NCBI RefSeq assembly: GCF_010725055.1
Contig: NZ_BJKB01000003.1
Location: forward strand, 62,001-126,000
DNA length: 64,000 bases
Direction of reading: 5' to 3'
From: Gelidibacter japonicus
GTDB lineage: Bacteria > Bacteroidota > Bacteroidia > Flavobacteriales > Flavobacteriaceae
The first letter of the stretch is position 1. Every line of letters starts with the position of its first letter. Shown piece after piece: positions 1,679 through 27,704 of this stretch. The notes under the pieces are model-generated. The model had not been told where the DNA came from, searched no databases, and saw only the letters and a program-made list of their open reading frames with translations. The position numbers and the translations under genes are program-made.

Positions 1679-3787
1679 ATGTTAGCTATGAATAAATTAT
1701 TTGTAATATTATTTTGTTTCGTGTTTACTTGCGTCAACGCACAGCAACTGCAGTCCCCATCAAAGGACATTGTGGTTGATTTCTCGTTGGATGACCAGGG
1801 GGAACCAACGTATCAAATTATGTATAAAGGGAAAGAAGTCCTCAAACCAAGTAAAATGGGGGTTCTGTTGAAGGATGGAAATACATTGAACAAAAACTTC
1901 AGGATCCTTGATGTTGAAACCAGCACATTTGACGAGAATTGGACGCCAGTTTTAGGTGAGGAAGCAGTGATAAGAAACCATTACAACCAAATGACCGTGC
2001 ATTTGGAACAAAAGGAATCTGATCAGAAAATGGACATTGTTTTCAAGGTGTATGATGAAGGGGTTGCTTTCAGATATGAGTTTCCATTTGAAAATAAAGC
2101 CCACTATTTTATTATTTCGGACGAGACTACCGAATTTAATCTAACGGGCAATCACAAGACGTTTTGGCTTCCCGGGGATTATGATAGTCAGGAATACAAT
2201 TATAACGAAACCAAATTTTCGGATATTGATATTTCTAAAATTGATCGAAACAACGGAATCGCCTTGCAAAGTGTGGAAAGCAATTATAGGGTGCAGACCC
2301 CTTTAATGCTGAAATCAGACGACAATTTATACCTCAATATTTTTGAAGCAGCAGTCAATAATTACCCTGTAATGCATTTGGATGTCGATACTGAAAATTA
2401 CACGTTGACCTCCAATTTGGTTCCTAATGCCATTGGGGACAAGGCTTATCTTAGAACGCCGTCAACAACACCTTGGCGCACCTTTATGGTCAGTGATGAT
2501 GCTCGGGATATTGTGGGTTCCAAAATGATTCTGAATTTGAACGAACCCAATAAAATTGAAGATACCTCATGGATCAAGCCTATGAAATACATAGGTATTT
2601 GGTGGGAAATGCATGTGGGGATAGCTACTTGGGATTATGCGGGCAGTCAAAACGCACAGAATTCCTTAACCAAGGAGCTGTTGCCTTCCGGAAAACATGG
2701 TGCCACAACGGAAAACACCAAACGTTATATCGATTTTGCCGCAAAACATGGTTTTGATGGCGTGTTGGTAGAAGGTTGGAACGTAGGATGGGAAGATTGG
2801 TTTGGAAATTGGAAAGAAGATGTTTTCGATTTCCTGACTCCGTATCCCGATTTTGATATTGAGGAAGTCCATAGATATGCCAAATCAAAAGGTGTAAAAA
2901 TGATTATGCACCATGAAACGTCGGGATCGGTTGGCAATTATGAACGGCATTTGGACCGCGCTATGGATTTGATGAAAAAATACGATTATCCGGCGGTCAA
3001 AACGGGTTATGTGGGTCGAATAATCCCTCGGGGCGAATATCATGACGGACAAGCCATGGTCAATCACTTTAATTTTGTGGCCGAACGTATGGCAGATAAT
3101 CAGTTGATGGTCAATTCACACGAAAGCACACGTCCAACGGGCTACCACAGAACCTATCCAAATTATATTGCCGCAGAAGCCGCACGTGGGAATGAGTTCA
3201 ATGCATGGAGCAATGGAAATCTACCTTCCCACGAAACCGTTTTGCCTTTTACAAGATTGCTGGGTGGTCCTATGGATTATACCCCGGGAATTTTTGAAAT
3301 CAAAATGAGTGCTTACGACCCCACTAAAACCGAACAGGTTCATACCACCTTGGCCAAACAATTAGCCTTGTACGTTACGCTGTATTCACCACTGCAAATG
3401 GCAGCCGATTTGCCGGAGAATTATGAAAAGCATTTGGATGCCTTCCAATTTATAAAAGATGTGCCGTTAGATTGGAAAACCTCCAAATATCTCGAGGCTG
3501 AACCGGGTGATTACCTCACGGTGGTTAGAAAGGATAAAAACTCCGAAAACTGGTTCTTGGGGGCGATAACCGATGAATATCCGAGGAAAACAGAAATTCC
3601 ATTGGATTTCCTGTCGCCAAACCAGACCTATAAAGCCACTATTTATCAGGACGGAAAGGATGCGCACTGGGAGAAAAACCCAAAAAGTTATACGATCAAA
3701 ACAGAAACGGTAACCAATAAATCCAAACTCAAATTGACTTTGGCTGCGGGTGGTGGAACGGCCATTAGTTTTATGGCCATAAACTAA
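1679..3787 (+). CDS. GH97 glycoside hydrolase, predicted inverting alpha-glucosidase type (SusB-like)
   Basis: Family 97 enzymes of Bacteroidota cleave terminal alpha-linked glucose (inverting) or galactose (retaining). The 702-residue protein has a signal peptide ending near VNAQQ, an N-terminal beta-super-sandwich, a TIM barrel and a small C-terminal beta domain. Three glutamates in SusB-type contexts are present: Glu413 in HHETS, Glu482 in NSHESTRPTG and Glu506 in GNEF. Their spacing of 69 and 24 residues agrees with the SusB pattern as I remember it, which favours the inverting alpha-glucosidase branch. An ATG at 1688 gives an equally good signal peptide and may be the true start. It lies among GH3 and GH43 genes, so an alpha-glucosyl decoration on the target glycan is a reasonable inference. 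Confidence 0.92.
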   Translation: MLAMNKLFVILFCFVFTCVNAQQLQSPSKDIVVDFSLDDQGEPTYQIMYKGKEVLKPSKMGVLLKDGNTLNKNFRILDVETSTFDENWTPVLGEEAVIRNHYNQMTVHLEQKESDQKMDIVFKVYDEGVAFRYEFPFENKAHYFIISDETTEFNLTGNHKTFWLPGDYDSQEYNYNETKFSDIDISKIDRNNGIALQSVESNYRVQTPLMLKSDDNLYLNIFEAAVNNYPVMHLDVDTENYTLTSNLVPNAIGDKAYLRTPSTTPWRTFMVSDDARDIVGSKMILNLNEPNKIEDTSWIKPMKYIGIWWEMHVGIATWDYAGSQNAQNSLTKELLPSGKHGATTENTKRYIDFAAKHGFDGVLVEGWNVGWEDWFGNWKEDVFDFLTPYPDFDIEEVHRYAKSKGVKMIMHHETSGSVGNYERHLDRAMDLMKKYDYPAVKTGYVGRIIPRGEYHDGQAMVNHFNFVAERMADNQLMVNSHESTRPTGYHRTYPNYIAAEAARGNEFNAWSNGNLPSHETVLPFTRLLGGPMDYTPGIFEIKMSAYDPTKTEQVHTTLAKQLALYVTLYSPLQMAADLPENYEKHLDAFQFIKDVPLDWKTSKYLEAEPGDYLTVVRKDKNSENWFLGAITDEYPRKTEIPLDFLSPNQTYKATIYQDGKDAHWEKNPKSYTIKTETVTNKSKLKLTLAAGGGTAISFMAIN

Positions 3788-3809
3788 CTTCAAGCACCAT
3801 GCTTTGAAG
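3788..3809. other. short intergenic hairpin after the GH97 gene
   Basis: CTTCAA at 3788-3793 pairs with TTGAAG at 3804-3809, with a GCA/TGC inner stem and a one-base bulge. There is no T-run. It lies in the 61-bp gap between the GH97 and GH43 genes and may be an mRNA-processing or stability element. The call is weak. Confidence 0.3.
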
Positions 3810-3848
3810 ATGTGAAGACTCAGTGAAAATTGAATCAATTATAAAGAG

Positions 3849-5627
3849 ATGATGAAATTCGTTAAAAATAATATGTTGAGGCTCATAACATCAATAGGTA
3901 TGTTGATCGTCTTTAATGCACATTCACAACAAAAAACCTATTGTAACCCCATCAATATTGATTATGGTTATACTCCTTTTGACCGATTTGCATCGCAAGG
4001 GAAACACCGGGCTACTGCAGATCCTGTCATTGTAAATTTTCAGGAAAAGTTGTTCCTGTTTTCCACCAATCAAGAAGGCTATTGGTACAGTGACAATATG
4101 CTCGATTGGACCTTTGTGCCACGAAAGTTTCTTGTGGACGATACTTATAAACACGATTTAAATGCCCCGGCCGCATGGGCAATGAAAGACACCTTATACG
4201 TGTATGGCTCCACTTGGAAATCAGATTTCCCTATTTGGAAAAGCACCAATCCCACCATTGACGATTGGGAAATTGCTGTGGATACTCTCAAAGTAGGGGC
4301 TTGGGATCCAGCATTTCATTATGATGAAGACACTGATGATTTGTATCTTTATTGGGGTTCCAGCAATGTTTGGCCGCTCTTGGGCACCAAGATCAACACC
4401 AAAACCATGCAGTCTGAAGGCTTTGTAAAACCTATTTTACAATTAAATCCGGAAGACCACGGCTGGGAACGTTTTGGAGAATATAATGACAATGTGTTCT
4501 TGCAGCCCTTTTTGGAAGGCGCATGGGTCACCAAACACAACGGTTTATATTACATGCAATATGGTGCCCCGGGAACGGAATTCAGTGGCTATGCCGATGG
4601 GGTTTATGTGAGTAAAAATCCGTTGGAAGGTTATGAATACCAAGCACACAATCCATTTTCATACAAGCCGGGCGGTTTTGCCAGTGGCGCTGGACATGGT
4701 GCCACCTTCCATGATAATTTTGATAATTATTGGCATGTATCGACCATAGCGATTTCCACAAAAAATAATTTTGAACGACGCTTGGGAATATGGCCTGCAG
4801 GTTTTGATCAGGATGATGTCATGTATTGCAACACAGCCTACGGCGATTATCCGACGTATTTGCCGGAATATGGTCAGGATAGGGATTTCACGAAAGATAT
4901 GTTTGCAGGTTGGATGTTGCTCAACTATCAAAAACCTGTCCTTTCTTCTTCAACCTTAGGAGCTTATCATCCCAACTTCGTGGTGGATGAGGATATCAAA
5001 ACCTATTGGAGTGCCAAAACCGGAGATAAAGGCGAGTGGTTTCAAACCGACCTGGGTGAAGTGTCCACCGTCAATGCCATTCAAATTAATTATGCCGATC
5101 AAGATGCCAAGTTTTTAGGAAAGACCTTGGGTAAATTCCATCAGTATAAAATCTACGGTTCCAATGACGGTAAAAAATGGACGGTGATTGTAGATAAGAG
5201 TAAAAACAAAACAGATGTGCCTCACGATTATATCGAATTGGCAAATCCTGTGAAAGCACGCTATTTAAAACTCGAAAACTGGTACATGCCCACAGGGAAG
5301 TTTGCCTTAAGTGGATTCAGGGTATTTGGAAAGGGAACTGGAGAAAAGCCAAAAGCCGTCGAACGATTTGTCGCTTTGCGTGCCACGCCTAAAAAATATG
5401 GCGAACGCAGAAGTATTTGGTTCAAATGGCAACAAAATCAGATGGCAGATGGGTATGTAATATACTGGGGCAAATCACCCGATAAACTCTACGGAAGCAT
5501 CATGGTATATGGTAAGAATGACTATTATTTTACGGGAGCAGATCGCGTGGATCCGTACTATTTTCAAATAGAGGCATTCAACAATAACGGGATTTCTGAA
5601 CGCACTGAAATTATAAAGGCTGAATAA
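3849..5627 (+). CDS. GH43 glycosidase with F5/8-type C-like and FN3-like modules (secreted)
   Basis: Family 43 enzymes are inverting five-bladed-propeller glycosidases acting on arabinose, xylose or galactose linkages. The expected acidic triad is visible: Asp58 (TADPV, base), Asp153 (AWDPAF, pKa modulator) and Glu223 (FLEGAW, acid). A discoidin/F5-8C-like domain covers about residues 365-500 and an FN3-like domain about 505-590. The N-terminus is a standard signal peptide ending at NAHSQ with no lipobox, so it is periplasmic or secreted. Two adjacent ATG codons (3849 and 3852) are possible starts. A paralog with the same architecture but a lipoprotein signal lies at 15896-17752. Subfamily and substrate are not assignable by eye. 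Confidence 0.9.
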   Translation: MMKFVKNNMLRLITSIGMLIVFNAHSQQKTYCNPINIDYGYTPFDRFASQGKHRATADPVIVNFQEKLFLFSTNQEGYWYSDNMLDWTFVPRKFLVDDTYKHDLNAPAAWAMKDTLYVYGSTWKSDFPIWKSTNPTIDDWEIAVDTLKVGAWDPAFHYDEDTDDLYLYWGSSNVWPLLGTKINTKTMQSEGFVKPILQLNPEDHGWERFGEYNDNVFLQPFLEGAWVTKHNGLYYMQYGAPGTEFSGYADGVYVSKNPLEGYEYQAHNPFSYKPGGFASGAGHGATFHDNFDNYWHVSTIAISTKNNFERRLGIWPAGFDQDDVMYCNTAYGDYPTYLPEYGQDRDFTKDMFAGWMLLNYQKPVLSSSTLGAYHPNFVVDEDIKTYWSAKTGDKGEWFQTDLGEVSTVNAIQINYADQDAKFLGKTLGKFHQYKIYGSNDGKKWTVIVDKSKNKTDVPHDYIELANPVKARYLKLENWYMPTGKFALSGFRVFGKGTGEKPKAVERFVALRATPKKYGERRSIWFKWQQNQMADGYVIYWGKSPDKLYGSIMVYGKNDYYFTGADRVDPYYFQIEAFNNNGISERTEIIKAE

Positions 5628-5637
5628 AACAAAATCT

Positions 5638-7872
5638 ATGAGAGCACGTCATTTTTTAATCGCAAGTTTTATCTTTTTCGGATGTCTATGGACTTTGAGT
5701 GCGCAAAACGCGCCTTCCAAATATGAAGCCAAAATAGATTCGTTGATGAATCTGATGACTTTGGAAGAAAAAATAGGTCAGACTGTAATGTACGGCGGGG
5801 GCTGGGCCAAAACAGGTCCCTTTGTCAATACGGATTATGAAAAATACATCAGGGAAGGTAGCGTAGGGGCGATGCTGAATGTTTATACCGCTAAGGCCAC
5901 TCGTGATCTGCAGAAAATTGCTGTAGAAAACACCCGTTTGGGGATTCCACTGTTGTTTGGTTATGATGTGATTCATGGCCATCGGACCATATTTCCAATC
6001 AATCTCGCATTGTCAGGAAGTTGGGATCCTGAGCTTGTTGAACTTACCTCACGCATCGCCGCTGAAGAAGCTTCGGCAGAAGGATTGCACTGGACTTTTG
6101 CTCCCATGTTGGACATTGCAAGAGATCCGCGTTGGGGAAGGATTTCAGAGGGTGCAGGAGAAGACGTTTATCTGACGAATGTCTTGGCAAAGTCTTATGT
6201 AAAAGGTTTTCAGGGCGATGATTTGTCAAAGAACAACACCATTCTTGCCTGTGCCAAGCATTTTGTGGGTTATGGCGCTGCACAAGCCGGTCGTGACTAT
6301 CATACGGTCAGTATGGGAGAAGATGAATTGCGCAACGTGTATTTACCGCCATTTAAAGCAGCGGTCGACGCTGGAGTGGAAACCTTTATGACCGCTTTTA
6401 ATGAGTTGAACGGTATTCCTGCAACCGGAAATAAATTTATTTTTCGCGACATTCTTCGCAATGAATGGGATTTTAAAGGCTTTGTCGTATCCGATTATAC
6501 GGCCATTAATGAACTAATTCCACATGGTTTCGCAAAAGACAGCTTGGATGCTGCACGTTTGGCAATGCTTGCCGGTGTGGATATGGATATGATGGGACAT
6601 GTGTATCGTAAGAATTTAAAGAAATTAATTGAAGAGGGTGAGGTTAGTGAGGACTTGGTCAACGAATCCTGTCGGAAAATTTTATCGGCAAAATTCAAAT
6701 TGGGATTGTTTGAGGATCCTTATCGTTATTCTGACGAAAAACGCCAACAGGAAACCATCTATAAACCTCAATTTTTAAAAGCCGCCCGTGATGCTGCGGC
6801 AGCTTCTTCGGTATTGTTAAAAAACGATGGAAATGCATTACCACTGGAAAAGTCGGCTACCATTGCCTTGATCGGTCCCTTGGCAAAGGATGAATATCAC
6901 ATCAACGGAAATTGGGGTGGTGCTGGAGATAGAAAAGGGAAGTCGGTGAGTATTTATGAAGGTCTTCAGGAGTATTTAAAGGACAGTCAAATGTTATATG
7001 CAAAGGGATGCGAATTGGAAAAGGATGACGAAAGTGGCTTTCAAGAAGCTATTGATGTCGCCAAAAAAGCGGATGTGGTGCTTCTCGTGATGGGCGAAAG
7101 TTACCATATGAGCGGCGAGGCAGCATCGCGAACTGACATTAGAATCCCTGGGATCCAACCAAAACTGATCAAGAAAATTCGGGAGGCAGTTCCCAATAAA
7201 AAAATTGTTTTGCTCTTAATGAATGGAAGACCTTTGGATCTTTCCGAAGAAATAGGACAAGTGGATGCTATTTTGGAAGCTTGGTACCCCGGAACCATGG
7301 GAGGTAGTGGGGTTACCGACGTCTTGTTTGGGGTTTATAATCCATCGGCGAAGTTGACGGTGACGTTTCCACGTAATGTTGGCCAGATTCCAATTTATTA
7401 CAATATGAAAAACACGGGGCGTCCCATCCCGGAATCCAATCCGAAGCAAGATTATAAGTCCAATTATATCGATTCGCCGAACACCCCATTATTCGTTTTC
7501 GGACACGGACTGAGCTATACCACATTTCAATACTCTGAGCTTACCCTGTCGTCAACACATATCGGATTTAATGACACACTTACAGCAACGGTAAGCATTA
7601 CCAATACCGGGAATTACGACGGCCATGAAGTTGTCCAGCTTTATATACACGATAAGGTAGGAAGCATTACGAGGCCAGTGAAGGAACTCAAAGGTTTCCA
7701 AAAGATCTTTCTTAAAAAGGGAGAAAGTAAAATCGTAACGTTTAATATATCGGTTGAAGATTTGAAATTTTACAATAATAACATGGAATATGTGGCTGAA
7801 GCAGGAGAATTTGAAATTGCCATTGCGCCAAGTTCTGATTTTAAATTTAAACATTTATTTACCCTTGAATAA
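5638..7872 (+). CDS. GH3 beta-glucosidase-type hydrolase (BglX-like, periplasmic)
   Basis: This is a full-length, 744-residue family 3 glycoside hydrolase. A signal peptide ends near LSAQ, followed by the (beta/alpha)8 barrel with nucleophile Asp286 in GFVVSD, the alpha/beta sandwich with MSGEAASR (acid/base region in this subgroup), and a C-terminal FN3-like domain. It starts 10 bp after the GH43 stop, so co-transcription is likely. It is closely related to the truncated GH3 at the left edge and more distantly to the lipoprotein GH3 at 29349. Keeping two such enzymes in one block suggests different linkages or aglycones. Likely role: periplasmic removal of beta-linked terminal glucose or xylose from imported oligosaccharides. 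Confidence 0.95.
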   Translation: MRARHFLIASFIFFGCLWTLSAQNAPSKYEAKIDSLMNLMTLEEKIGQTVMYGGGWAKTGPFVNTDYEKYIREGSVGAMLNVYTAKATRDLQKIAVENTRLGIPLLFGYDVIHGHRTIFPINLALSGSWDPELVELTSRIAAEEASAEGLHWTFAPMLDIARDPRWGRISEGAGEDVYLTNVLAKSYVKGFQGDDLSKNNTILACAKHFVGYGAAQAGRDYHTVSMGEDELRNVYLPPFKAAVDAGVETFMTAFNELNGIPATGNKFIFRDILRNEWDFKGFVVSDYTAINELIPHGFAKDSLDAARLAMLAGVDMDMMGHVYRKNLKKLIEEGEVSEDLVNESCRKILSAKFKLGLFEDPYRYSDEKRQQETIYKPQFLKAARDAAAASSVLLKNDGNALPLEKSATIALIGPLAKDEYHINGNWGGAGDRKGKSVSIYEGLQEYLKDSQMLYAKGCELEKDDESGFQEAIDVAKKADVVLLVMGESYHMSGEAASRTDIRIPGIQPKLIKKIREAVPNKKIVLLLMNGRPLDLSEEIGQVDAILEAWYPGTMGGSGVTDVLFGVYNPSAKLTVTFPRNVGQIPIYYNMKNTGRPIPESNPKQDYKSNYIDSPNTPLFVFGHGLSYTTFQYSELTLSSTHIGFNDTLTATVSITNTGNYDGHEVVQLYIHDKVGSITRPVKELKGFQKIFLKKGESKIVTFNISVEDLKFYNNNMEYVAEAGEFEIAIAPSSDFKFKHLFTLE

Positions 7873-7903: not shown

Positions 7904-9739
7904 ATGAAAAAACAATTACTCATATTACTTATGTTGATGACCTCTATAAGCTTTGCACAGCAATATGCATTTATAGATTTCGGAAACTCATCCACCACCA
8001 CGCCTGGGAATTGGAACAACGTAGTCACCACCATGCAAAACCAGACGGGCGTCATTGTCAACCTGATTGATTCCAATGGGAGCGCTACAGGAGTGACTCT
8101 CGAACTCACTGACTCTTTTGATGCCATCAATACCAATGGAACCACGTCACCTAATAGCGCATTGCCTTTTCCGGCATCGGCTACAAGGGATAATTTTTTT
8201 GGAGCGACCAGTGCAGGTTTTAACGGAAACATCACCCTTACCGGGGGTTTTACCTTAACTGGCTTGGACCCTTCAAAGTATTATTCATTTATAGTGTTCA
8301 GTTCCAGAACGGGAGTGAGCGATAATCGTGAAACACTTTATACCGTAACTGGTGCAACAACTGCTGCTGAAGGTTTAAATGCCTCTAATAATACCTCAAA
8401 TACTGCTGATATTTTAAATATTCAATCTACAGCAGGTGGTGAAATCACGTTTGAAGCCAAACCGGGACCTAATAACAACAATTCTTTTGGATTTTTCTAT
8501 TTGGGTGCACTTCAATTGATTATTAGTGATTCGCCCATCGGAGACACCACTCCAGACCCCACATTGACCTTGACCTATCCTAATGGCGGTCATCTATGGG
8601 AAGTAGGTAAAACCGTTAGGGTGAAATGGTCAAGCATTGCGGTGACCGATATGTTGATCGAATTTTCATCAGATAATGGCGCTAATTGGTCTACAATAGC
8701 CACAGCTCCAGCGTCACCTCAGTATTATGACATGGTGGTTCCCAACACGATTTCCTCATCTTGTCTAATTAGAATTTCAGGAGAAGGCTTGACCGATACA
8801 AGTAATGCTAGCTTTGAAACCATACCCAATGAAGGCATGGTTTATCGGATTGTCATCCTCGGTTCCTCAACCGCAGCAGGTGTTGGGCCATCAGACGGCA
8901 ATAATGCCTGGGCCACCAAATACCGCAACTATCTTACTGAAATGGATACGCGTTATGATATTGTCAATTTAGCTGTGGGTGGCTATGCTACCTACAATAT
9001 TTTACCAACGGGCACACCAATTCCATCTGGAGTAAGTAGAACAATTGATACACAAAGGAATATTACAAAGGCTATTGAATTGGTTCCAGGAGGTGTCATT
9101 ATTAATATGCCTTCCAATGATGCTGCAAGTGGGTATCCTGTTGCAGATCAAGTGGCAAACTACAATCTCATCAGCGCCGTGACCACGAGTGAGGAAGTGC
9201 CATTATGGGTCACCACGCCACAGCCTCGAAATTTTGGGAGTAATACAACAAATCTGAATATTCAAACCCAAATGGTGACCGAGACCAACACGATGTTTGG
9301 TGATTTTGCCATCGATTTTTGGACTGGGTTTCCTATTGCCAATAATAACGGCATCCTTCCACAGTATGATTCTGGGGATGGTATCCATTTTAATGACGCT
9401 GCACATCAGATTTTATTTGATAGAGTTATTGCCAAAGGCGTACACCTGGCAGTAAAGGCAAAGGCGGATGCGTTAAGTGTGGAGGATCATGTTACGGCAG
9501 ATTTCATAGTGTTTCCAAATCCAGTGACTACAACGGCTACCATTAAGTTCACACAGACACTTTCCCAAGAAGTCACAATCTCATTGATGGATATGTTGGG
9601 TAAAGAAATTTACCGAAAAACACAGACCCCTGTAAACAATACCATGTCTTTTTCGAGAGATCAGATTGAATCAGGATTTTATATCCTAAAAATTAATAGT
9701 GCGAGTAAAATTATTACAAAAAGAATATTAATCAACTAA
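7904..9739 (+). CDS. secreted SGNH/GDSL-type esterase with novel N-terminal domain and T9SS tail
   Basis: This 611-residue protein is a putative carbohydrate esterase. After a signal peptide ending at SFAQQ come an uncharacterised beta-rich domain (about 20-205), a KRE9/Ig-like domain (about 210-310; starts TYPNGG and contains VKWSS), an SGNH hydrolase domain (about 315-520) and a type IX secretion sorting tail (about 530-611; starts FPNPV). SGNH landmarks are GSST with Ser322 as nucleophile, NLAVGG, an Asn in NMPSND, and Asp492/His495 in DGIH. The block I Asp of GDSL is replaced by Ser, which occurs in some SGNH families. The N-terminal domain is shared with the next gene. Likely role: deacetylating or de-esterifying the polymer outside the cell. 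Confidence 0.85.
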   Translation: MKKQLLILLMLMTSISFAQQYAFIDFGNSSTTTPGNWNNVVTTMQNQTGVIVNLIDSNGSATGVTLELTDSFDAINTNGTTSPNSALPFPASATRDNFFGATSAGFNGNITLTGGFTLTGLDPSKYYSFIVFSSRTGVSDNRETLYTVTGATTAAEGLNASNNTSNTADILNIQSTAGGEITFEAKPGPNNNNSFGFFYLGALQLIISDSPIGDTTPDPTLTLTYPNGGHLWEVGKTVRVKWSSIAVTDMLIEFSSDNGANWSTIATAPASPQYYDMVVPNTISSSCLIRISGEGLTDTSNASFETIPNEGMVYRIVILGSSTAAGVGPSDGNNAWATKYRNYLTEMDTRYDIVNLAVGGYATYNILPTGTPIPSGVSRTIDTQRNITKAIELVPGGVIINMPSNDAASGYPVADQVANYNLISAVTTSEEVPLWVTTPQPRNFGSNTTNLNIQTQMVTETNTMFGDFAIDFWTGFPIANNNGILPQYDSGDGIHFNDAAHQILFDRVIAKGVHLAVKAKADALSVEDHVTADFIVFPNPVTTTATIKFTQTLSQEVTISLMDMLGKEIYRKTQTPVNNTMSFSRDQIESGFYILKINSASKIITKRILIN

Positions 9740-9750
9740 AAACAAAAACA

Positions 9751-10671
9751 ATGAAAAAAATTACACAAACATTAGCAATATTATGTATTGCTACATTTAC
9801 AATGACGGTACAATCGCAGCAGGTTTTCCTTTTCGATTTGAACCACAACAATTCGGAACTTAACCGGACAGAGGGTAACTGGAATAATCATTTGGCAAGT
9901 GCTATGACTACAGACATCAGCAACTTTATCAATGATCAAGGTGTGGCTTCAACCTATTCTTTTGGAGTAACAGATGACTTTGTTTCGGCCAACAACAATG
10001 GAACAACCTCTCCCGATCCTAGTATTGGTTTTCCTGCTACGGCAACAATTGACTCCTATTATGTCCAGAATGGAAGTAACGAAACAGGAGCTTTTACCTT
10101 TTCGGGTTTGAATACTTCCATGTATTATCAATTTGAAATATTTGCTTCGCGGGTAGGTGTAACTGATAATCGTCAGGCTCAATATACCGCAACTGGTGCC
10201 AATACCGGAATTGCTTATTTGGACGGTGGAAACAATACCGCCAATACGACGACTATCGTCAATATCCAGCCTGACGCGACTGGAAATATTGTATTAGCAC
10301 TTCAAAAGGGACCTGAAAACACGAACGGCTCCGGCTTTTGTTATATTGGAGCTATCAAAATGACGGAAACTACAGAGCTTTCAACTCCTGATTTCTCATT
10401 GGAGGCCAATGTCACTGTTTCTCCAAATCCAGTAACCGAATCATTTTTAGTTCGCTTTAATATGAATAGCACTGCAAAAGTTTCCATTGCCCTTTATGAT
10501 ACTGCAGGCAAAATGGTCACATCTATTTTTAATGATAAGGTTTCAGCTGGTATATTTAACCATACTTGGAATAGAACTTCAGGGGAAGGCGAGACAATTG
10601 CCGCGGGACTTTACATTTTGGAAATCAACGCAGGTGATCATAAAATGAGCAAGAAATTAATTTTGAAATAG
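9751..10671 (+). CDS. small T9SS-exported protein sharing the esterase's N-terminal domain; candidate glycan-binding protein
   Basis: This 306-residue protein has a signal peptide (cleavage near QSQQ), one domain of about 190 residues and a T9SS sorting tail (about 225-306; VSPNPV near its start, AGLYILE near its end). The domain is clearly homologous to residues 20-205 of the preceding esterase: both contain GNWNN, NGTTSP, FP-A-AT, a V[ST]DNR segment followed by YT-TGA, and a terminal YxGA segment. No catalytic motif is visible. As the whole mature protein is this domain plus an export tail, carbohydrate binding at the cell surface is the simplest inference. I do not know a named family for it. 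Confidence 0.75.
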   Translation: MKKITQTLAILCIATFTMTVQSQQVFLFDLNHNNSELNRTEGNWNNHLASAMTTDISNFINDQGVASTYSFGVTDDFVSANNNGTTSPDPSIGFPATATIDSYYVQNGSNETGAFTFSGLNTSMYYQFEIFASRVGVTDNRQAQYTATGANTGIAYLDGGNNTANTTTIVNIQPDATGNIVLALQKGPENTNGSGFCYIGAIKMTETTELSTPDFSLEANVTVSPNPVTESFLVRFNMNSTAKVSIALYDTAGKMVTSIFNDKVSAGIFNHTWNRTSGEGETIAAGLYILEINAGDHKMSKKLILK

Positions 10672-10697: not shown

Positions 10698-13328
10698 ATG
10701 AAGCCACATATAACATATCAAATTAGAAATTTGCTGATCCTGTTTTGTGTGGCTTTTTCTTATCAATTGAGCGCCCAAAAATCCATCATAAATTCCGGGT
10801 GGCAATTCACCTTGGATACCACAAAAACCAATTGGCAAACGATCAATATTCCGCACACATGGAATAAAAATGATGCTTTTGACGACGACCCCGGGTATTT
10901 AAGAGGTTTGGGTTTTTATCAAAAACAAGTATATGTTCCTATCGAGAAAAAAGAATTAATACATTATCTCCGTTTTAAAGGCGTCAACCAAGAAGCCAAT
11001 GTCTATGTGAATGGCCATTTTGTCGGCAATCATAAAGGGGGTTATACAGCCTTTAATTTTAATATTACAGAGTTCTTGAAATTTGGGGATTATAATCTTA
11101 TTGAAGTAAAGGTTGACAATTCGTATAATGCGAATATCCCACCCTTGGACATCGACTTTACAATTTATGGCGGTATTTATAGAGATGTGGAATGGATTGC
11201 AATACCAAAGCAACATCTCACTTTAAATGATTTTGCATCTGAAGGCTTTTATGTGGATTACCCTAATGTTTCCAAAGAAAAAGCCAGTGTAGAAGTAACG
11301 GTTTTTTTGGACAATTTTGATGTGAAATCGGCTACAAATCAACTCGAATTAAGTATTTCAGATGCCGATGGAAAAATCATCCGTACTGAAACTAAAAAAA
11401 TAAAAATCAACGCCAACACCACCGAAAAACTGAAGATACATTTTCCAGAAATCCGTAATCCAAATTTATGGTCGCCTGAACATCCGTACCTCTATCAGTT
11501 GCAAATTGTGTTAAAAGATAAGAATGGAACTATTTTAGAAGAAAAATCATCGCATGTTGCATTCCGTTGGGTCAGTGTCGATCCAAATAAAGGCTTGATC
11601 CTTAACGGAGAACCTTACAAACTAATTGGAGTTAATAGACATCAGGATTACGAAGGCTATGGAAGTGCCGTACCGATGCAGCTTCAGGAAAATGACATTT
11701 ATCTGATAAAAAATATGGGATCCAATGTGATTCGTTTTGCACATTATCCACAAGCTCAGGAACTCTATAAGTTATGCGATGAACTTGGACTTCTGGTATG
11801 GTCAGAAATCCCAGTTGTCAATAAAGTGACCAACACGCCTGAATTTTTTGAAACCAGCCTGACCATGCAGGAAGAACATCTCAAACAGTATTATAATTTT
11901 CCTTCTGTGGTGATGTTTGGGTATATGAACGAGATTTTTCTTCGTTTGGTTTTTGATAGAACATCTACTGACCAAGAAAAAGAGGATGCTAAAGTGTATA
12001 GCTATGAACTTGCAAAACAGTTGGAGGATTTCACAAGGAAAATGGCGCCCAACCGATTGACAGTGATGGCACTGCACTTCAATGAAGTCTATAACGACAC
12101 TAAAATCGCCGATTTGTCCATGCTGATTGGATGGAATCTCTACTTTGGATGGTATAACGACACCATTCCTGATTTGGGCATATTTTTGGATGACCAACAC
12201 AAACGTTTTCCAAACCGCTCCATCATGATATCAGAATATGGTCCCGGGGCGGATGTCAATATTTCGAGTACCACCCCAAAAAAGTACGATTATACCCAAG
12301 AATATCAATTGATCCTGCATAAAAGCTATTATGATCAAGTCATGGCGCGCGATTTTGTGGTCGGTATGACCGCTTGGAATTTTGCCGACTTCGGTTCAGA
12401 GTTTAGAGGAGAGACCATCCCGCATGTCAATCAAAAAGGATTGGTGCAATACAATCGGGAGCCAAAGGATGTCTATTATTGGTACAAATCAGTTCTGAAT
12501 ACAAAAGAGCCTCTTCTACACATTGCTTTAAATCCAGAACACCCTTTGAGTTTAATCGATGAAGACCAGCGAACCGTATCGATTTTTTCAAATGAAAAGA
12601 AGGCGGAAGTTTTTTTGAATGGCGAATTGATTGATGCTGTTACTTTTATTGACGGACTGGCTACAGCGGCTATTCCATTTATAAATGGTGAAAATGAATT
12701 GAAAGTAATTTCAGATTCACAAGAAGAGACCAAAACGGTTCAAGTATTCAAAACAGATAATTTGAAAACAGCGCATTTCAAAAGATTTGGAATCAACCTT
12801 GGATCTCATTTCAGTTTTTACGATAAAGAGAATGATGTCACCTTCGTTCCAGATAGGCCGTATTCTGAAAATCTTTACGGCCATTTTGACGGAACACCCT
12901 ATAACATTACCAAAGATAAAAATCAAGGCATTCCCAATAATATTAAAAACACAGAAAAAGAAGGGATTTTTCAAACCATGCTTGAAGGTTGTACAAGCTA
13001 CAAAGTAGATGTTCCGGATGGCCAATATCAGGTCACTTTGTTTTTTGTAGAACCACAAATAAAAAGTAACATTGAGATGATTTTTAATTTAACCGTCGAA
13101 AAAGCATTGTCCAATGAAGACTCAAAAAGACAACGTGTTTTTGATGTTTTTATAAATGACAACTTGATTGAAAGCCGTTTTAATATGGCGAAAACTTTCC
13201 CAGATAAATATGGTGTAACCCTCACGAGTATTGTAAATATCAGAAACAACGAAGGTTTAAGCATAAACCTCAAACCCATTGAAGGGAAGACGGTCCTTAG
13301 TGGAGTTTTGATTGAAAAGAAAGATTAA
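10698..13328 (+). CDS. GH2 glycoside hydrolase with C-terminal malectin-like domain
   Basis: Family 2 enzymes are retaining beta-galactosidases, beta-mannosidases, beta-glucuronidases and relatives. The 876-residue protein has a signal peptide ending at LSAQK, a jelly-roll sugar-binding domain (contains GFYQK and GVNQEANVYVNG), Ig-like domains, then the TIM barrel. The acid/base is Glu412 in YMNEI and the nucleophile Glu513 in SEYGPG. The last roughly 180 residues form a malectin-like (CBM57-type) module beginning near GINLGSHF. It is followed after 3 bp by an esterase gene, indicating one transcript. Which beta-sugar it removes is not decidable from the motifs, although beta-galactosidase is a common activity for this architecture. 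Confidence 0.92.
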   Translation: MKPHITYQIRNLLILFCVAFSYQLSAQKSIINSGWQFTLDTTKTNWQTINIPHTWNKNDAFDDDPGYLRGLGFYQKQVYVPIEKKELIHYLRFKGVNQEANVYVNGHFVGNHKGGYTAFNFNITEFLKFGDYNLIEVKVDNSYNANIPPLDIDFTIYGGIYRDVEWIAIPKQHLTLNDFASEGFYVDYPNVSKEKASVEVTVFLDNFDVKSATNQLELSISDADGKIIRTETKKIKINANTTEKLKIHFPEIRNPNLWSPEHPYLYQLQIVLKDKNGTILEEKSSHVAFRWVSVDPNKGLILNGEPYKLIGVNRHQDYEGYGSAVPMQLQENDIYLIKNMGSNVIRFAHYPQAQELYKLCDELGLLVWSEIPVVNKVTNTPEFFETSLTMQEEHLKQYYNFPSVVMFGYMNEIFLRLVFDRTSTDQEKEDAKVYSYELAKQLEDFTRKMAPNRLTVMALHFNEVYNDTKIADLSMLIGWNLYFGWYNDTIPDLGIFLDDQHKRFPNRSIMISEYGPGADVNISSTTPKKYDYTQEYQLILHKSYYDQVMARDFVVGMTAWNFADFGSEFRGETIPHVNQKGLVQYNREPKDVYYWYKSVLNTKEPLLHIALNPEHPLSLIDEDQRTVSIFSNEKKAEVFLNGELIDAVTFIDGLATAAIPFINGENELKVISDSQEETKTVQVFKTDNLKTAHFKRFGINLGSHFSFYDKENDVTFVPDRPYSENLYGHFDGTPYNITKDKNQGIPNNIKNTEKEGIFQTMLEGCTSYKVDVPDGQYQVTLFFVEPQIKSNIEMIFNLTVEKALSNEDSKRQRVFDVFINDNLIESRFNMAKTFPDKYGVTLTSIVNIRNNEGLSINLKPIEGKTVLSGVLIEKKD

Positions 13329-13331
13329 CGA

Positions 13332-14219
13332 ATGAAGAAAATAATTTATTACCTATTGCTATGTAGTTTCAATTTTGGATTTTCCCAATCAAATGTCACT
13401 ACCTATACTTATGCCATAAAAGGATTGGACACCTTAAAAATGGATGTCTATACACCAAAAAAAATGAAAAAAAATGATTCCGTCCCAGTCTTATTGTGGA
13501 TGCATGGTGGCGGATTTGTTGGCGGTAGTAGAAGTTATCCAAGTGAAGTGAAATTGGCTGAATTGGCTGCAGAGAAAGGGTATTTAGGTATTTCCATCTC
13601 CTATCGATTGACCAGAAAAGGCCAACCGACAGGCTTTGGATGTGATTGTCCAAAAGCCGATAAACTGCTGACCTTTAAAAATGCAGCAATCGACTTTCTG
13701 GACGCTGCAAAATTTATTTATGAGAATAGGGCTCTGCTTGGAGCTGACACCACTAAAATTATCGCTGGTGGAAGTAGTGCTGGTGCAGAAGGCATGCTCA
13801 ACGCGGTTTATATGCGGGAGTATTTTATTGACGATTTAAAAAATTATCAAAAAATCAAATTCGCTGGCGTCTTTTCTTTAGCTGGAGCCATGGTCAATGC
13901 GGATTATGTTTCAAAAGACAATGCGCTGCCTTCGGTGTTTTTTCACGGGACAGCGGATAATTTAGTGCCTTTTGCAAGTGCGCCGCATCATCTTTGTAAA
14001 CCGGAAAAGAAAGGCTATATCATGCTGGATGGCTCGTCAACCATAGTCGATAGATTGTTGGAATTGGAAATGCCCTATTATTTCTACAAAGTGATTGGAG
14101 GCAAACATGAATTGTCAAATATCCCGTTTGACCAATTGGATGAGGTCTTCGAATTTTTCAACAACACCATCTTTAAAAGAGAAGTCATACAAACTGTTAG
14201 AATAATTAAGAAAACATGA
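13332..14219 (+). CDS. secreted alpha/beta-hydrolase carboxylesterase (putative carbohydrate esterase)
   Basis: A 295-residue alpha/beta hydrolase with a signal peptide (cleavage near GFSQS). It has the oxyanion-hole motif HGGGF, the nucleophile elbow GGSSAG with Ser149, a late Asp in TADNLVPF and the catalytic His in GGKHE. These are the marks of the carboxylesterase/feruloyl-or-acetyl-esterase-like group that accompanies plant and algal polysaccharide enzymes. The stop overlaps the start of the sulfatase gene (ATGA), so the two are translationally coupled. Probable role: removing acyl groups from oligosaccharides so the flanking GH2, GH43 and sulfatase can act. Confidence 0.85.
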   Translation: MKKIIYYLLLCSFNFGFSQSNVTTYTYAIKGLDTLKMDVYTPKKMKKNDSVPVLLWMHGGGFVGGSRSYPSEVKLAELAAEKGYLGISISYRLTRKGQPTGFGCDCPKADKLLTFKNAAIDFLDAAKFIYENRALLGADTTKIIAGGSSAGAEGMLNAVYMREYFIDDLKNYQKIKFAGVFSLAGAMVNADYVSKDNALPSVFFHGTADNLVPFASAPHHLCKPEKKGYIMLDGSSTIVDRLLELEMPYYFYKVIGGKHELSNIPFDQLDEVFEFFNNTIFKREVIQTVRIIKKT

Positions 14220-15883
14220 AAAAGTTAGCATGTTATTTATTGATCCTTGTCATTTTTCAATCGTGCAAGACCAAACCGGAAGTTGCTGCCGAAACGCAAC
14301 CACAACAAAGACCGAACATTATTTATATCATGGCTGATGACCATGCTACCCAAGCCATTAGTGCTTATGGACATCCCATTAGCAAATTGGCACCTACACC
14401 CAATATTGACCGTATCGCAGAGGAAGGTGCTATTTTTATGAATAATTTCTGTACGAATTCCATCTGTGGGCCGAGCCGCGCCGTAATTCTTACCGGAAAA
14501 CACAGTCATATTAACGGTTTTAGAATGAACGGCAACAAGTTTGATGGCGACCAACCCACCTTTCCAAAGATGCTACAAAAAGCGGGATACAATACTGCAC
14601 TCATCGGAAAATGGCATCTGTACGGGAATCCTCAAGGGTTTGACCATTGGAATATTTTAACCGATCAAGGCAATTATTACAACCCGGATTTTATCGCCAT
14701 AAATGAAACCACCCAAAAGGTGGATACCACAAGGATTGAGGGCTATGCCACAGACATTATCACTGAAGATGCCATAAGATATCTGGATAAGGTAAAAGAC
14801 AGCAAACAGCCCTTTCTCTTAATGGTACAGCACAAAGCGCCCCATCGCAATTGGATGCCAGCACTCAGACATTTGAACAAATATGATGATGTCAAGTTCC
14901 CATTGCCAGATACATATTTTACCGACCATGAAGGTTCTATCGCCTCAAAAGAACAATACCAAACCATTTATAGAGACATGTATGAAGGTCACGACTTAAA
15001 AATGACCGTTGCAAAAGGAAGTAATGAATTGGCACACAATCCGTGGAAAACGGATTTTGAAAGGATGACCAAAGAGCAACGCGCCATTTGGGACCAAGCC
15101 TACGGACCAAAAAATGACGCTATGCACGATGCCAATTATAACGAAGAGGAATTGGCACTCTGGAAAGCACAACGTTATTTGCAGGATTATTTGGCCACCA
15201 TAGCGTCGGTTGATGAAGGTGTTGGTAAAATTCTCGATTATTTAAAAACCAACGGTTTGGAAGAAAATACCATCATCATTTACACCACCGATCAAGGTTT
15301 TTATTTAGGTGAAAAGGGTTGGTTTGATAAGCGGTTTATGTATGAAGAATCGTTGGCGATGCCTATGGTCATGAGATATCCCACAGTGATCAAGCCCGGC
15401 ACTAAAATTACGGCATTGACCCAAAACCTCGATTTTGCCGAAACCTTTTTAGATTTTGCCCAAGCAGAGATTCCAGCCGATATGCAAGGCAAATCATTGA
15501 AACCATTATTGACAAAAAAAGCCAATGATGCCGATTTTAGAGATGCCATATACTATCATTACTACGATTTTCCGGCTTTCCACATGGTCAAAAAAATGTA
15601 CGGAGTGCGTACCAATCGCTATAAATTAATCCATGTATATGATGATGTAGATCAATGGGAACTCTATGATCTGCAAACAGACCCTAAAGAAATAAACAAC
15701 CTCATTGATGATGATTCTTATACTGATATTGAAAGGGAATTGCGAAATAAACTTGGAGCTTTGCAAGAGAAATACTTAGTAACGGATAAAGAATTTGAAA
15801 AAGCGAGTCCAGAATCCATTCAACGCAGTTATAAAAACTTTGAGCGCTTGAGAGGACAACCCATGGAAGCTTACAAACACTAA
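14216..15883 (+). CDS. family S1 formylglycine sulfatase, lipoprotein
   Basis: This 555-residue type I sulfatase hydrolyses sulfate esters of sugars. The signature CGPSR is present with Cys84, the residue oxidised to formylglycine by a maturation enzyme encoded elsewhere, followed by the usual ILTGKH segment. The metal-binding ADDH near the N-terminus and the GKWH and TDQGF motifs complete the core. A lipobox (FQSC) predicts membrane anchoring. The C-terminal part (YYHYYD, then RYKLIHVYDD and WELYDL) resembles sulfatases often annotated as N-acetylglucosamine-6-sulfatase-like, but that name should not be taken as the substrate. It implies that the glycan of this block is sulfated. Confidence 0.93.
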   Translation: MKKLACYLLILVIFQSCKTKPEVAAETQPQQRPNIIYIMADDHATQAISAYGHPISKLAPTPNIDRIAEEGAIFMNNFCTNSICGPSRAVILTGKHSHINGFRMNGNKFDGDQPTFPKMLQKAGYNTALIGKWHLYGNPQGFDHWNILTDQGNYYNPDFIAINETTQKVDTTRIEGYATDIITEDAIRYLDKVKDSKQPFLLMVQHKAPHRNWMPALRHLNKYDDVKFPLPDTYFTDHEGSIASKEQYQTIYRDMYEGHDLKMTVAKGSNELAHNPWKTDFERMTKEQRAIWDQAYGPKNDAMHDANYNEEELALWKAQRYLQDYLATIASVDEGVGKILDYLKTNGLEENTIIIYTTDQGFYLGEKGWFDKRFMYEESLAMPMVMRYPTVIKPGTKITALTQNLDFAETFLDFAQAEIPADMQGKSLKPLLTKKANDADFRDAIYYHYYDFPAFHMVKKMYGVRTNRYKLIHVYDDVDQWELYDLQTDPKEINNLIDDDSYTDIERELRNKLGALQEKYLVTDKEFEKASPESIQRSYKNFERLRGQPMEAYKH

Positions 15884-15895
15884 AATTTATATATC

Positions 15896-17752
15896 ATGAA
15901 TACATTCAAAACATTAAGTATGTGCTTGGCGCTAGTCGTAGTTGTTGCCTGTAAGGAAAGTACAGATGATAAAAAGATTCTGGAGGAAACCCAAACCGGG
16001 AATTCCGTTGAAAACACCAAAAACAATTTTACAACCTATTGTAACCCCATAGATATTGATTATTCCTATATGTCACATTATCGCGCCAAGAATAACGTTT
16101 CCTATCGTTCAGGAGCTGATCCGGCCGTTGTGAACTTTAAAGGGCGTTTTTATATGTTCGTCACACGATCGCACGGCTATTGGGCGTCTGACGATATGAG
16201 CAACTGGACATTTATAAAGCCTCAAAGTTGGTATTTTAACGGCTCCAATGCGCCAGCCGCAGCAGTGAAGGATGGTAAAATTATTGTTTTGGGAGATCCA
16301 TCGGGAAGAGGAGCGGTTATTGAAACTGACAATCCAGAATTGGGCGATTGGAAAACCAATTATGCAGTCATCAATATGCCACACGGTACCCAGGACCCAG
16401 ATTTGTTTGTGGATGATGATGGGAAAGTTTACCTCTATGAGGAGTCCTCCAACAAATGGCCAATTCGCGGCATTGAGTTAGATCCTGAAAACTATTATAT
16501 CCCGTTGGGAGAACAAGTTGATCTGTTCAATCTTAACCCAGAGAAACACGGATGGGAGCGTTTTGGACAGGATCATAGATCTGATTTAAAACCCTTTATT
16601 GAAGGACCGTGGATGGTAAAACATAACGGCATCTATTATCTCGAATACGGCGCACCTGGAACGCAATGGAACGTTTATGCCGATGGTGTCTATACCAGTA
16701 AGAATCCGCTTGGACCTTTTGAATATGCGCCCTATAATCCTATTTCATATAAACCGGGTGGCTTTTTGAAAGGCTCGGGTCACGGTAGCACGGTCAAAGA
16801 CAACAATGGCAATTATTGGCATTATTCAACCATGGCCATCTCCGTGAATTTTAAATTTGAAAGACGTTTGGGAATGTACCCGGCAGGATTTGAAGAGAAT
16901 GGCCAAATGTATGTCAATACCGCTTATGGCGATTACCCACACTATCTTCCAGATACAAAGGTGGAAAACCATAAGGAACGTTTTACGGGATGGATGTTAT
17001 TGTCCTATAAAAAACCTGTAAAAACCAATTCGCCATTGGTAGAAAAGGAAATCAATGTGGTTGACGAAAGTGAAGGAGGTTATATGCAGGAACAGATCAA
17101 GGATTTCAATATCAATAGGATAAACGATGAGGAAATCCGAAGTTATTGGGTTTCCGAGAGCAATAATGATTCCATTTATATTGAGATGGATTTATTAAAA
17201 CCGATGGAGGTGAACGCGCTTCAGATAAATTTCCAAGATTTTAACAGTGTAATTTTTGGGCGACCAGACGATATCAAACAGCAATTCGTCATTGAATCAT
17301 CTTTGGATGGAAAAAATTGGGAGGTAGTTGTGGACTATTCAAAAAACACAAGAGATATCCCACATGCCTATATCGAACTTAAAAATTCGGTCGAAGCACG
17401 TTATATCCGTTATAATCACGTATTCTGTACCAACAAGTATTTGGCCATTTCAGAGTTGCGGATTTTCGGAAAAGGGAAGGAGGCCAAACCTCAAACACCT
17501 TCCAATTTTAAAGTGGCTAGACAAAAAGATAGACGCAACGCCAACCTATCTTGGGATGCGGTCAAAGATGCCACGGGATATGTGATATATTGGGGCATTG
17601 AAAAAGACAAACTGAATCTTAGTGCCATGATGTATGATCATCCAGATTATGAATTGCGGGCATTGACTACGGACCAATCGTATTATTTGCAAGTGGAAGC
17701 ATTCAATGAAAACGGGATTTCTGAGCGAAGTGATCTTGTTTTTATAGAGTAA
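15896..17752 (+). CDS. GH43 glycosidase with F5/8-type C-like and FN3-like modules (lipoprotein)
   Basis: This is the second GH43 of the block, 618 residues, paralogous along its whole length to 3849-5627. The triad is Asp75 (GADPAV), Asp167 (TQDPDL) and Glu236 (FIEGPW). A discoidin-like domain follows at about 385-545 and an FN3-like domain at about 550-618. It differs from its paralog in having a lipobox (VVACKE), so it is predicted to be lipid-anchored, and a short linker of about 25 residues before the catalytic domain. It ends the esterase/sulfatase/GH43 run; the regulator gene starts 125 bp later. The pair probably acts on the same or closely related linkages in different compartments. 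Confidence 0.9.
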   Translation: MNTFKTLSMCLALVVVVACKESTDDKKILEETQTGNSVENTKNNFTTYCNPIDIDYSYMSHYRAKNNVSYRSGADPAVVNFKGRFYMFVTRSHGYWASDDMSNWTFIKPQSWYFNGSNAPAAAVKDGKIIVLGDPSGRGAVIETDNPELGDWKTNYAVINMPHGTQDPDLFVDDDGKVYLYEESSNKWPIRGIELDPENYYIPLGEQVDLFNLNPEKHGWERFGQDHRSDLKPFIEGPWMVKHNGIYYLEYGAPGTQWNVYADGVYTSKNPLGPFEYAPYNPISYKPGGFLKGSGHGSTVKDNNGNYWHYSTMAISVNFKFERRLGMYPAGFEENGQMYVNTAYGDYPHYLPDTKVENHKERFTGWMLLSYKKPVKTNSPLVEKEINVVDESEGGYMQEQIKDFNINRINDEEIRSYWVSESNNDSIYIEMDLLKPMEVNALQINFQDFNSVIFGRPDDIKQQFVIESSLDGKNWEVVVDYSKNTRDIPHAYIELKNSVEARYIRYNHVFCTNKYLAISELRIFGKGKEAKPQTPSNFKVARQKDRRNANLSWDAVKDATGYVIYWGIEKDKLNLSAMMYDHPDYELRALTTDQSYYLQVEAFNENGISERSDLVFIE

Positions 17753-20682: not shown

Positions 20683-20919
20683 TCCTACTACATCTCAAAA
20701 TATCACCCATACATTACCACAACACAACCTGATTTTTGCTAAATCTATCACGTTTGCGTAACAAATTTTAAAAACAGTTAAATTAGCGGGTCTGTGGGGG
20801 TTCTTTTGCATATATAATAAATAATATGTTGATTTTATGCGATGTATATTCATTGTTGTGGTGACTTTTATTTTTTTAATAATTGAATTGTCTAAGTTTA
20901 TACCATAAAGTTTTAAACT
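20683..20919 (+). promoter_or_regulatory. control region upstream of susC
   Basis: This AT-rich 237-bp gap must hold the promoter of the SusCD operon. Two 9-bp inverted arms (ACCACAACA at 20716-20724 and its complement at 20854-20862) enclose 129 bp, and a G-run (GGGGG near 20800) stands out in the AT-rich context. I found no perfect -33/-7 pair; TAAGTTTA at 20893-20900 is one mismatch from the -7 consensus but lies too close to the ATG to be convincing. Binding sites for the upstream HTH regulator or the downstream LacI protein are expected here. Confidence 0.45.
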
Positions 20920-24066: not shown

Positions 24067-24084
24067 CATCTAAAATAAATTAGT

Positions 24085-25584: not shown

Positions 25585-25596
25585 AAAAATAACGAC

Positions 25597-27687: not shown

Positions 27688-27704
27688 AAGAAAAAAATAG
27701 TAGT

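Follow-up and report, generated by a model that had tools for sequence, protein, structure and literature searches.

The shared domain and the question it raises

The genome of the flavobacterium Gelidibacter japonicus carries, within a 64,000 nt stretch of contig NZ_BJKB01000003.1 (positions 62,001 to 126,000, hereafter the window), two adjacent genes that begin with similar N-terminal domains and lie in a polysaccharide utilization locus (PUL). In the first (gene 1) the domain, here called Dom1, precedes a predicted secreted SGNH/GDSL esterase. A reading made from the DNA letters alone (the sequence-only reading) had suggested that Dom1 is a new type of carbohydrate-binding module (CBM), and the question raised by the locus is what role such a domain plays when it is found both joined to an enzyme and by itself in the next gene. 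We consider it probable that Dom1 is a glycan-recognition module that targets the secreted esterase, with the free exported copy acting as a second binder. The direct support consists of the homology of the two Dom1 copies, the export tails, the SGNH motifs, a beta-sandwich model, the conservation of the pair within a PUL and two natural fusions. From these we infer glycan binding, a ligand, the bond cleaved and cooperation between the two gene products.

Gene 1 and gene 2 are on the same strand and are separated by 11 bases (Table 1). BLASTP alignment of their N-terminal parts gave 86 identical residues of 212 (41%, E 6e-39, signal peptides included), and a second match between the proteins (E 1e-8) corresponds to the type IX secretion system (T9SS) tail common to both. 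With Dom1 alone the local alignment score was 363, compared to 50 ± 8.8 (maximum 92) in 1000 shuffles, or 35 standard deviations above. The motifs on which homology had been proposed are present in both proteins, at residues 35 and 42 (GNWNN), 78 and 83 (NGTTSP), 140 and 139 (DNR) and 199 and 198 (Y[LI]GA) of gene 1 and gene 2, respectively. The claim of homologous N-terminal domains in adjacent genes is confirmed. These two are the only places in the window's own genome where Dom1 was found.

The gene 1 protein consists of a signal peptide, Dom1 (residues ~19-206), an immunoglobulin (Ig)-like stretch (about 216-310), the GDSL/SGNH domain (316-508) and a T9SS tail (536-611). Gene 2 specifies a signal peptide, Dom1 (~22-206) and a Por_Secre_tail/TIGR04183 tail (223-306, Pfam and NCBIfam), and the description of it as a domain with nothing but an export tail was correct. 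Both proteins have the features of T9SS cargo, with TIGR04183 matches above the cut-off and signal peptides recognised by eye. The gene 2 product was also considered as a SusE/SGBP-type lipoprotein, but by eye there is no cysteine near the likely cleavage site, and it carries the T9SS tail instead.

The esterase domain of gene 1 contains the motifs GSSTAAG (residue 320), NLAVGG (355), MPSND (402) and DGIHFND (492), which represent the Ser, Gly, Asn and Asp/His blocks of SGNH enzymes, and this set is kept in 7 aligned members. A profile of the domain retrieved GDSL/SGNH acylhydrolases from the PDB sequences (best E 9.7e-6, 9 sequences at E <= 0.01). The AlphaFold2 model of this domain was poor (predicted local distance difference test, pLDDT, 56.8; 7 sequences) and was set aside. 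Given the intact motif set, serine-esterase chemistry is expected from what is known of the family, and the enzyme probably acts on polysaccharide ester groups.

Conservation of the pair

In other genomes (the handles G and L denote genomes and stretches of their DNA) the order GH3, Dom1-SGNH, Dom1, GH2, BD-FAE, sulfatase (GH, glycoside hydrolase) is kept in Gelidibacter (L023), UBA5544 (L027) and G097 (L100). Mesonia (L024) has GH3, Dom1-SGNH and Dom1 in the same order, with a sulfatase and a GH97 nearby. In two further cases, L025 (truncated where its contig ends) and L103, a single chain with the architecture Dom1-SGNH-Dom1 is encoded behind the GH3 gene. In a maximum-likelihood tree of 27 Dom1 sequences, the second Dom1 of these two fusion proteins shares a clade (support 98/97) with the stand-alone copies from the window, Gelidibacter and Mesonia. 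Since the fused second copy clusters with the Dom1 of gene 2, the products of genes 1 and 2 are likely to be partners. A different arrangement is seen in G029, whose one detected Dom1 belongs to a DUF4886-Dom1 protein (L109:9413-11230, minus strand); the gene for this protein closes the same PUL core (GH3, GH2, BD-FAE, sulfatase, GH43) and does not occupy the place of the pair.

The same comparisons bear on the idea that gene 2 arose as a copy of gene 1, lost its esterase and is now decaying without a function of its own. Gene 2 does adjoin gene 1 and corresponds to it minus the Ig and SGNH parts, but its lineage is deep in the tree, the conserved residues are kept, and several genomes contain stand-alone versions whose frames are intact and which carry a T9SS tail. 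Its Dom1 is also 94% identical to the counterpart in L023, the window organism being close to Gelidibacter pelagius. Decay is accordingly a very improbable explanation.

Sequence family and predicted fold

Dom1 was described in the sequence-only reading as uncharacterised, and searches of Pfam, NCBIfam and the PDB sequences gave nothing significant for it. Neither Dom1 of the window matched a Pfam or NCBIfam family at E <= 5, and the Dom1 profile matched no PDB sequence at the same threshold. When 26 Dom1 members were compared to Pfam, the best values were to Glyco_hydro_36C (0.02, 3 members), DUF7359 (0.024, one member) and fn3 (0.026, 8 members), which are taken as chance or fold-level similarity. 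At E <= 1, the matches of these members included neither a Pfam CBM family nor Malectin (PF11721), and none of the searches gave a match to a known non-binding family, an outcome that would have spoken against a binding role. Within the window's genome, PF11721 occurs at one place at E <= 1e-8, the GH2 beside the pair, and PF21254 had no match at E <= 0.001, the Bacillus subtilis control being positive. No description of Dom1 turned up in searches of the open-access literature.

The structure of the gene 2 Dom1 was predicted with AlphaFold2 from 13 sequences, giving an all-beta model (pLDDT 86.6; predicted template modelling score 0.87). The model shows the beta-sandwich expected from the sequence-only reading, and its nearest relatives in VIA-align comparisons of the predicted model were malectin-like domains, the YxiM N-domain and CBMs. 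The best PDB matches were the malectin-like domains of plant ANX2, ANX1 and FER (Z 11.6-10.8; the best, Z 11.6, over 153 residues), and malectin itself scored Z 9.1. Dom1 shows no PF11721 match or profile-profile signal; a Malectin domain is carried by the neighbouring GH2. The N-domain of YxiM (PDB 2o14; Z 11.2, root mean square deviation 2.8, 136 residues, 15% identity) resembles that of gene 1 as a jelly-roll placed ahead of an SGNH esterase. We take 2o14 to be a member of PF21254 (AGA-YXIM_GBD), which fits the B. subtilis control. Dom1 differs from it in giving no PF21254 or profile-profile signal, in being followed by an Ig-like stretch and in also standing alone.

Lower values were obtained with two carbohydrate-binding domains of a putative pectate lyase (Z 9.5 and 8.8), a porphyran-binding CBM (Z 8.6) and CBM35/36/61/16/22 (Z 7.4-7.9, where values below 8 may mean a common arrangement only). 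Jelly-roll CBMs such as CBM35, CBM36 and CBM61 share with Dom1, besides the fold, their attachment to SGNH esterases; no Pfam CBM family was among the matches of the 26 Dom1 members (E <= 1). The jelly-roll CBM of YxiM and the CBM35 of RiCE17 are examples of modules appended to SGNH domains given in sections of PMC9487903. The relation of Dom1 to malectin and YxiM-type domains is one of fold, without detectable sequence signal, and we place Dom1 as a new, still unnamed sequence family within an already established type of system, the jelly-roll module on an SGNH esterase.

The most invariant residues (domain numbering) are W23, N24, Y105 and N141. Judging from the strand order of the model, two sets of residues would lie at opposite ends of the sandwich: the conserved polar residues S112, R113, R120 and N141 of the loops, and G98, L99, P153 and G157.

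Distribution and enzyme partners

Dom1 was found in 93 distinct proteins (including close pairs, window/Gelidibacter and G097/UBA5544) from Bacteroidota and the phylum of Kiritimatiellota B12222, of which 87 have frames complete in their stretch. The domain occurs in 14 of the 249 genomes drawn from the window's taxonomic family and 11 of the 395 drawn from its phylum (E <= 1e-4), own genome included in both, and in 28 of 194 genomes from the phylum of B12222 (that genome included), where it is often a small stand-alone protein with a PEP-CTERM-like end.

Among the 76 Dom1 proteins of up to 1100 aa, Pfam (E <= 1e-4) detected Por_Secre_tail in 21, Lipase_GDSL_2 in 12, DUF4886 in 9, PEP-CTERM in 7, Metallophos and Peptidase_S9 in 2 each and Esterase in 1, a tally biased by the seeding of the profile with SGNH-fused, DUF4886-fused and stand-alone copies. 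These Pfam counts are safer than T9 and PEP labels assigned by loose patterns, which include visible false T9 calls. The 20 families listed for the 76 proteins include no glycoside hydrolase, lyase or sulfatase. Ten of the 17 proteins longer than 1100 aa were scanned whole and added Lipase_GDSL_2 (2), Metallophos (1), Sulfatase (1) and a polysaccharide lyase of family PL8 (1); across the 86 proteins scanned whole no glycoside hydrolase partner was seen. Recognised partners are thus usually ester-cleaving (GDSL/SGNH, DUF4886, phosphoesterase, sulfatase), with PL8 once. Some long frames (~1800-2400 aa; L144, L146, L147 and L148) have three Dom1 copies each; fn3 and PA14 domains also occur in L146, the first L147 frame and a piece of L144 (L051), and T9SS tails in L146 and L147.

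Dom1 is, in summary, a discrete non-catalytic domain joined N- or C-terminally to mostly putative carbohydrate-active enzymes (GDSL/SGNH, DUF4886, sulfatase and PL8 proteins). It is N-terminal to SGNH domains of the gene 1 type and C-terminal to DUF4886, and this opposite placement indicates that it joined different SGNH enzymes at opposite ends. DUF4886 is listed in part of PMC9487903 among the SGNH families without known function. The Dom1 family would open a way to the substrates of numerous uncharacterised esterases, DUF4886 proteins among them, and the gene 2 product, with its single domain, could serve directly as a probe for binding.

In six genomes a stand-alone gene is the only Dom1 found (two of these genomes are 84-87% complete). 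The sequence-only reading held that the domain occurs fused to an esterase and also alone beside it; the first part is seen across different esterase types, while the second is not a general rule. The six genomes also bear on whether Dom1 could be an assembly module, with Dom1-Dom1 contacts that join the esterase to the stand-alone protein, or order multidomain proteins, without touching a glycan. The adjacency of the pair, Dom1-SGNH-Dom1 and Dom1-Dom1-SGNH proteins, long proteins with two to four copies, and invariant residues kept whatever the partner would all suit such a role. A lone stand-alone copy, however, has no Dom1 partner left to bind, and the fold neighbours are mostly carbohydrate-binding or receptor-binding domains; assembly is a rather unlikely function.

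Functional interpretation

Returning to glycan recognition, Dom1 would be a non-catalytic jelly-roll module (galactose-binding-like, malectin-like). In gene 1 it would hold the T9SS-exported SGNH esterase on its polysaccharide, and the catalytic domain would thereby remove O-acyl groups, most likely O-acetyl. Gene 2 would provide the same module, exported alone by the T9SS, as an enzyme-free second binder whose task would be to capture that polysaccharide or present it to the PUL. The suggestion of a new carbohydrate-binding module survives in that fold, context and mobility fit and no Pfam or NCBIfam family claims Dom1, and it keeps the status of a candidate; the interpretation as a binding module, with its reliance on a predicted model, is partly supported.

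Several results weigh against this interpretation. In profile-profile comparisons (hhalign), Dom1 had probabilities of 0.2-0.3% with malectin and 0.1-0.3% with YxiM-type domains (a weak test, with only 3 partial sequences), no better than the SGNH (0.2-1.1%) and Ig (1.2-1.3%) controls. Foldseek found nothing in the PDB at E <= 0.001, the best being CBM61 at 1.1e-3. Receptor-binding domains of clostridial binary toxins are also among the VIA-align matches (Z 9.4-7.9), so the fold alone is no proof of sugar binding, and the retention of W23, N24, Y105 and N141 across very different partners would also be compatible with a structural function. The majority of Dom1 proteins match no enzyme family, and the stand-alone copies of G097 and UBA5544 have the same gene position as gene 2 and are outside its clade. 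Finally, the association with PULs is moderate: PUL markers were present in 7 of 13 Dom1 neighbourhoods and 3 of 20 control stretches (Fisher p 0.026), and five of the six stand-alone-only genomes had none, the sixth (G015) having a GH43.

For this comparison, the neighbourhoods were 13 stretches of 12-20 kb from 12 genomes of the window's taxonomic family, leaving out its own genome and G138 (a weak match at a contig end), and the controls came from nine of the 12 genomes, at chosen round-number positions. Any protein homologous at E <= 1e-15 to a GH, esterase, sulfatase, SusC or SusD of the window counted as a marker. Dom1 regions with SGNH or DUF4886 had a marker in five of six cases (L100, L103, L108, L109 and L112, not L111). 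The single marker-bearing genome among the six with stand-alone copies indicates that the stand-alone form often occurs away from this PUL, in genomes with no esterase-fused copy.

Malectin and YxiM-type domains had also been considered as the identity of Dom1 by sequence, and both were rejected after the family searches and the profile comparison, the latter being weak for YxiM-type domains.

A narrower version of glycan recognition, possible though doubtful, is that Dom1 reads decorations, binding glycans that bear acyl, sulfate or phosphate esters and bringing in the enzymes that strip these groups. This would explain the range of partners (SGNH, DUF4886, sulfatase, phosphoesterase and alpha/beta esterase, PL8 being the one backbone-cleaving partner and glycoside hydrolases being absent from the 86 proteins scanned whole), and copies without an esterase would be capture proteins on cells or virions.

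Prophage copies and a possible adhesion role

Genome G363 has two Dom1 proteins (L117:9486-10157, minus strand, and L118:9707-10399, plus strand), each encoded last in a run of phage genes. The prophage protein is 206 aa from the first ATG, without an evident signal peptide, and has no match in PHROGs. In L118, PHROGs matches include a tail tape measure protein (E 1.8e-83), tail fibre/collar and endolysin. A search of the model against BFVD (Foldseek) gave six viral matches at E <= 0.001, the top four with E 4e-8 to 1e-5 and TM-scores by query length of 0.62-0.69, and these include a tail fibre of Vibrio phage Kuja (E 2e-7, TM-score 0.69). Predicted phage tail-fibre domains gave the best Foldseek values overall, and their likeness to Dom1 is by fold and not by sequence: no Dom1 relatives were detected in viral-contig scans or by tblastn of 50,697 phage records, and the profile had no match in the Kuja record. 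It is possible that the Dom1 proteins of prophage tail modules are virion adhesins of the same family.

The prophage copies and the BFVD matches fit an adhesion role, and they also count in favour of glycan recognition. Dom1 might, on the other hand, be a general extracellular adhesion domain whose ligand, instead of the PUL substrate, would be a surface protein or the matrix of the cell itself, and whose presence in the PUL would be incidental. The prophage copies speak for this, as do the B12222 phylum, where stand-alone Dom1 genes specify PEP-CTERM-like ends, Flavobacteriia, in which stand-alone genes also lie away from PULs, and the fold matches to toxin receptor-binding domains. An incidental presence is difficult to reconcile with the conserved position of the pair in one PUL across several genera, with the repeated SGNH and DUF4886 fusions, and with the PL8 and sulfatase fusions, and we regard general adhesion as unlikely.

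Genomic setting of the pair

The genes flanking the pair are included in Table 1, and the gene order of both the upstream span (1679..7872) and the downstream span (10698..17752) is conserved in relatives. Labels were given by eye for the GH3/GH16 genes (3-1619, 29349 and 31646) and for LacI, SusC, SusD and the regulator; all other labels come from Pfam.

Table 1. Coordinates of the gene pair, its domains and the flanking PUL genes (window numbering).
Feature	Position	Strand	Basis
Upstream GH97	1679-3787	+	Pfam
Upstream GH43-like protein with F5/8 C	3849-5627	+	Pfam
Upstream GH3	5638-7872	+	Pfam
Gene 1, secreted SGNH/GDSL esterase (predicted), 611 aa	7904..9739	+	Open reading frame, Pfam, NCBIfam
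Gene 1 signal peptide (approximate)	7904..7960	+	By eye
Gene 1 Dom1	7958..8521	+	BLASTP with gene 2, alignments
Gene 1 Ig-like stretch between Dom1 and SGNH domain (approximate)	8549..8833	+	Weak Pfam Ig-like matches, inspection
Gene 1 SGNH/GDSL esterase domain	8849..9427	+	Lipase_GDSL_2 (E 2.5e-11), motif positions, alignment
Gene 1 T9SS type A sorting domain	9509..9736	+	PF18962 and TIGR04183 above cut-off
Gene 2, Dom1 and T9SS tail only, 306 aa	9751..10671	+	Open reading frame, Pfam, NCBIfam
Gene 2 Dom1, stand-alone (modelled with AlphaFold2)	9814..10368	+	BLASTP, alignment
Gene 2 T9SS type A sorting domain	10417..10668	+	PF18962 and TIGR04183 above cut-off
Downstream GH2 with Malectin, BD-FAE-type esterase, sulfatase, GH43 with F5/8 C	10698..17752	+	Pfam

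In the GH43-like protein at 3849-5627, Pfam finds only F5/8 C, and its relatives cross-match the GH43 protein at 15896-17752; it is read as a putative divergent GH43-type protein missed by the Pfam model.

Just upstream of the window the same cluster continues, with genes for a regulator, SusC, SusD and a LamG protein, behind these two consecutive PF10091 genes (L123:15191-17965, genome G000), and a GH3 gene. PF10091 is presumably equivalent to CAZy family GH144, and on that assumption the two genes may hint at a beta-1,2-glucan-like substrate.

A second cluster begins at 17878 (17878-32407) and encodes a regulator, SusC, SusD, a PKD protein, GH16, GH3 and GH16; we take it to be of the laminarin type. 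The same cluster type also adjoins the Dom1 PUL in G097 (L124).

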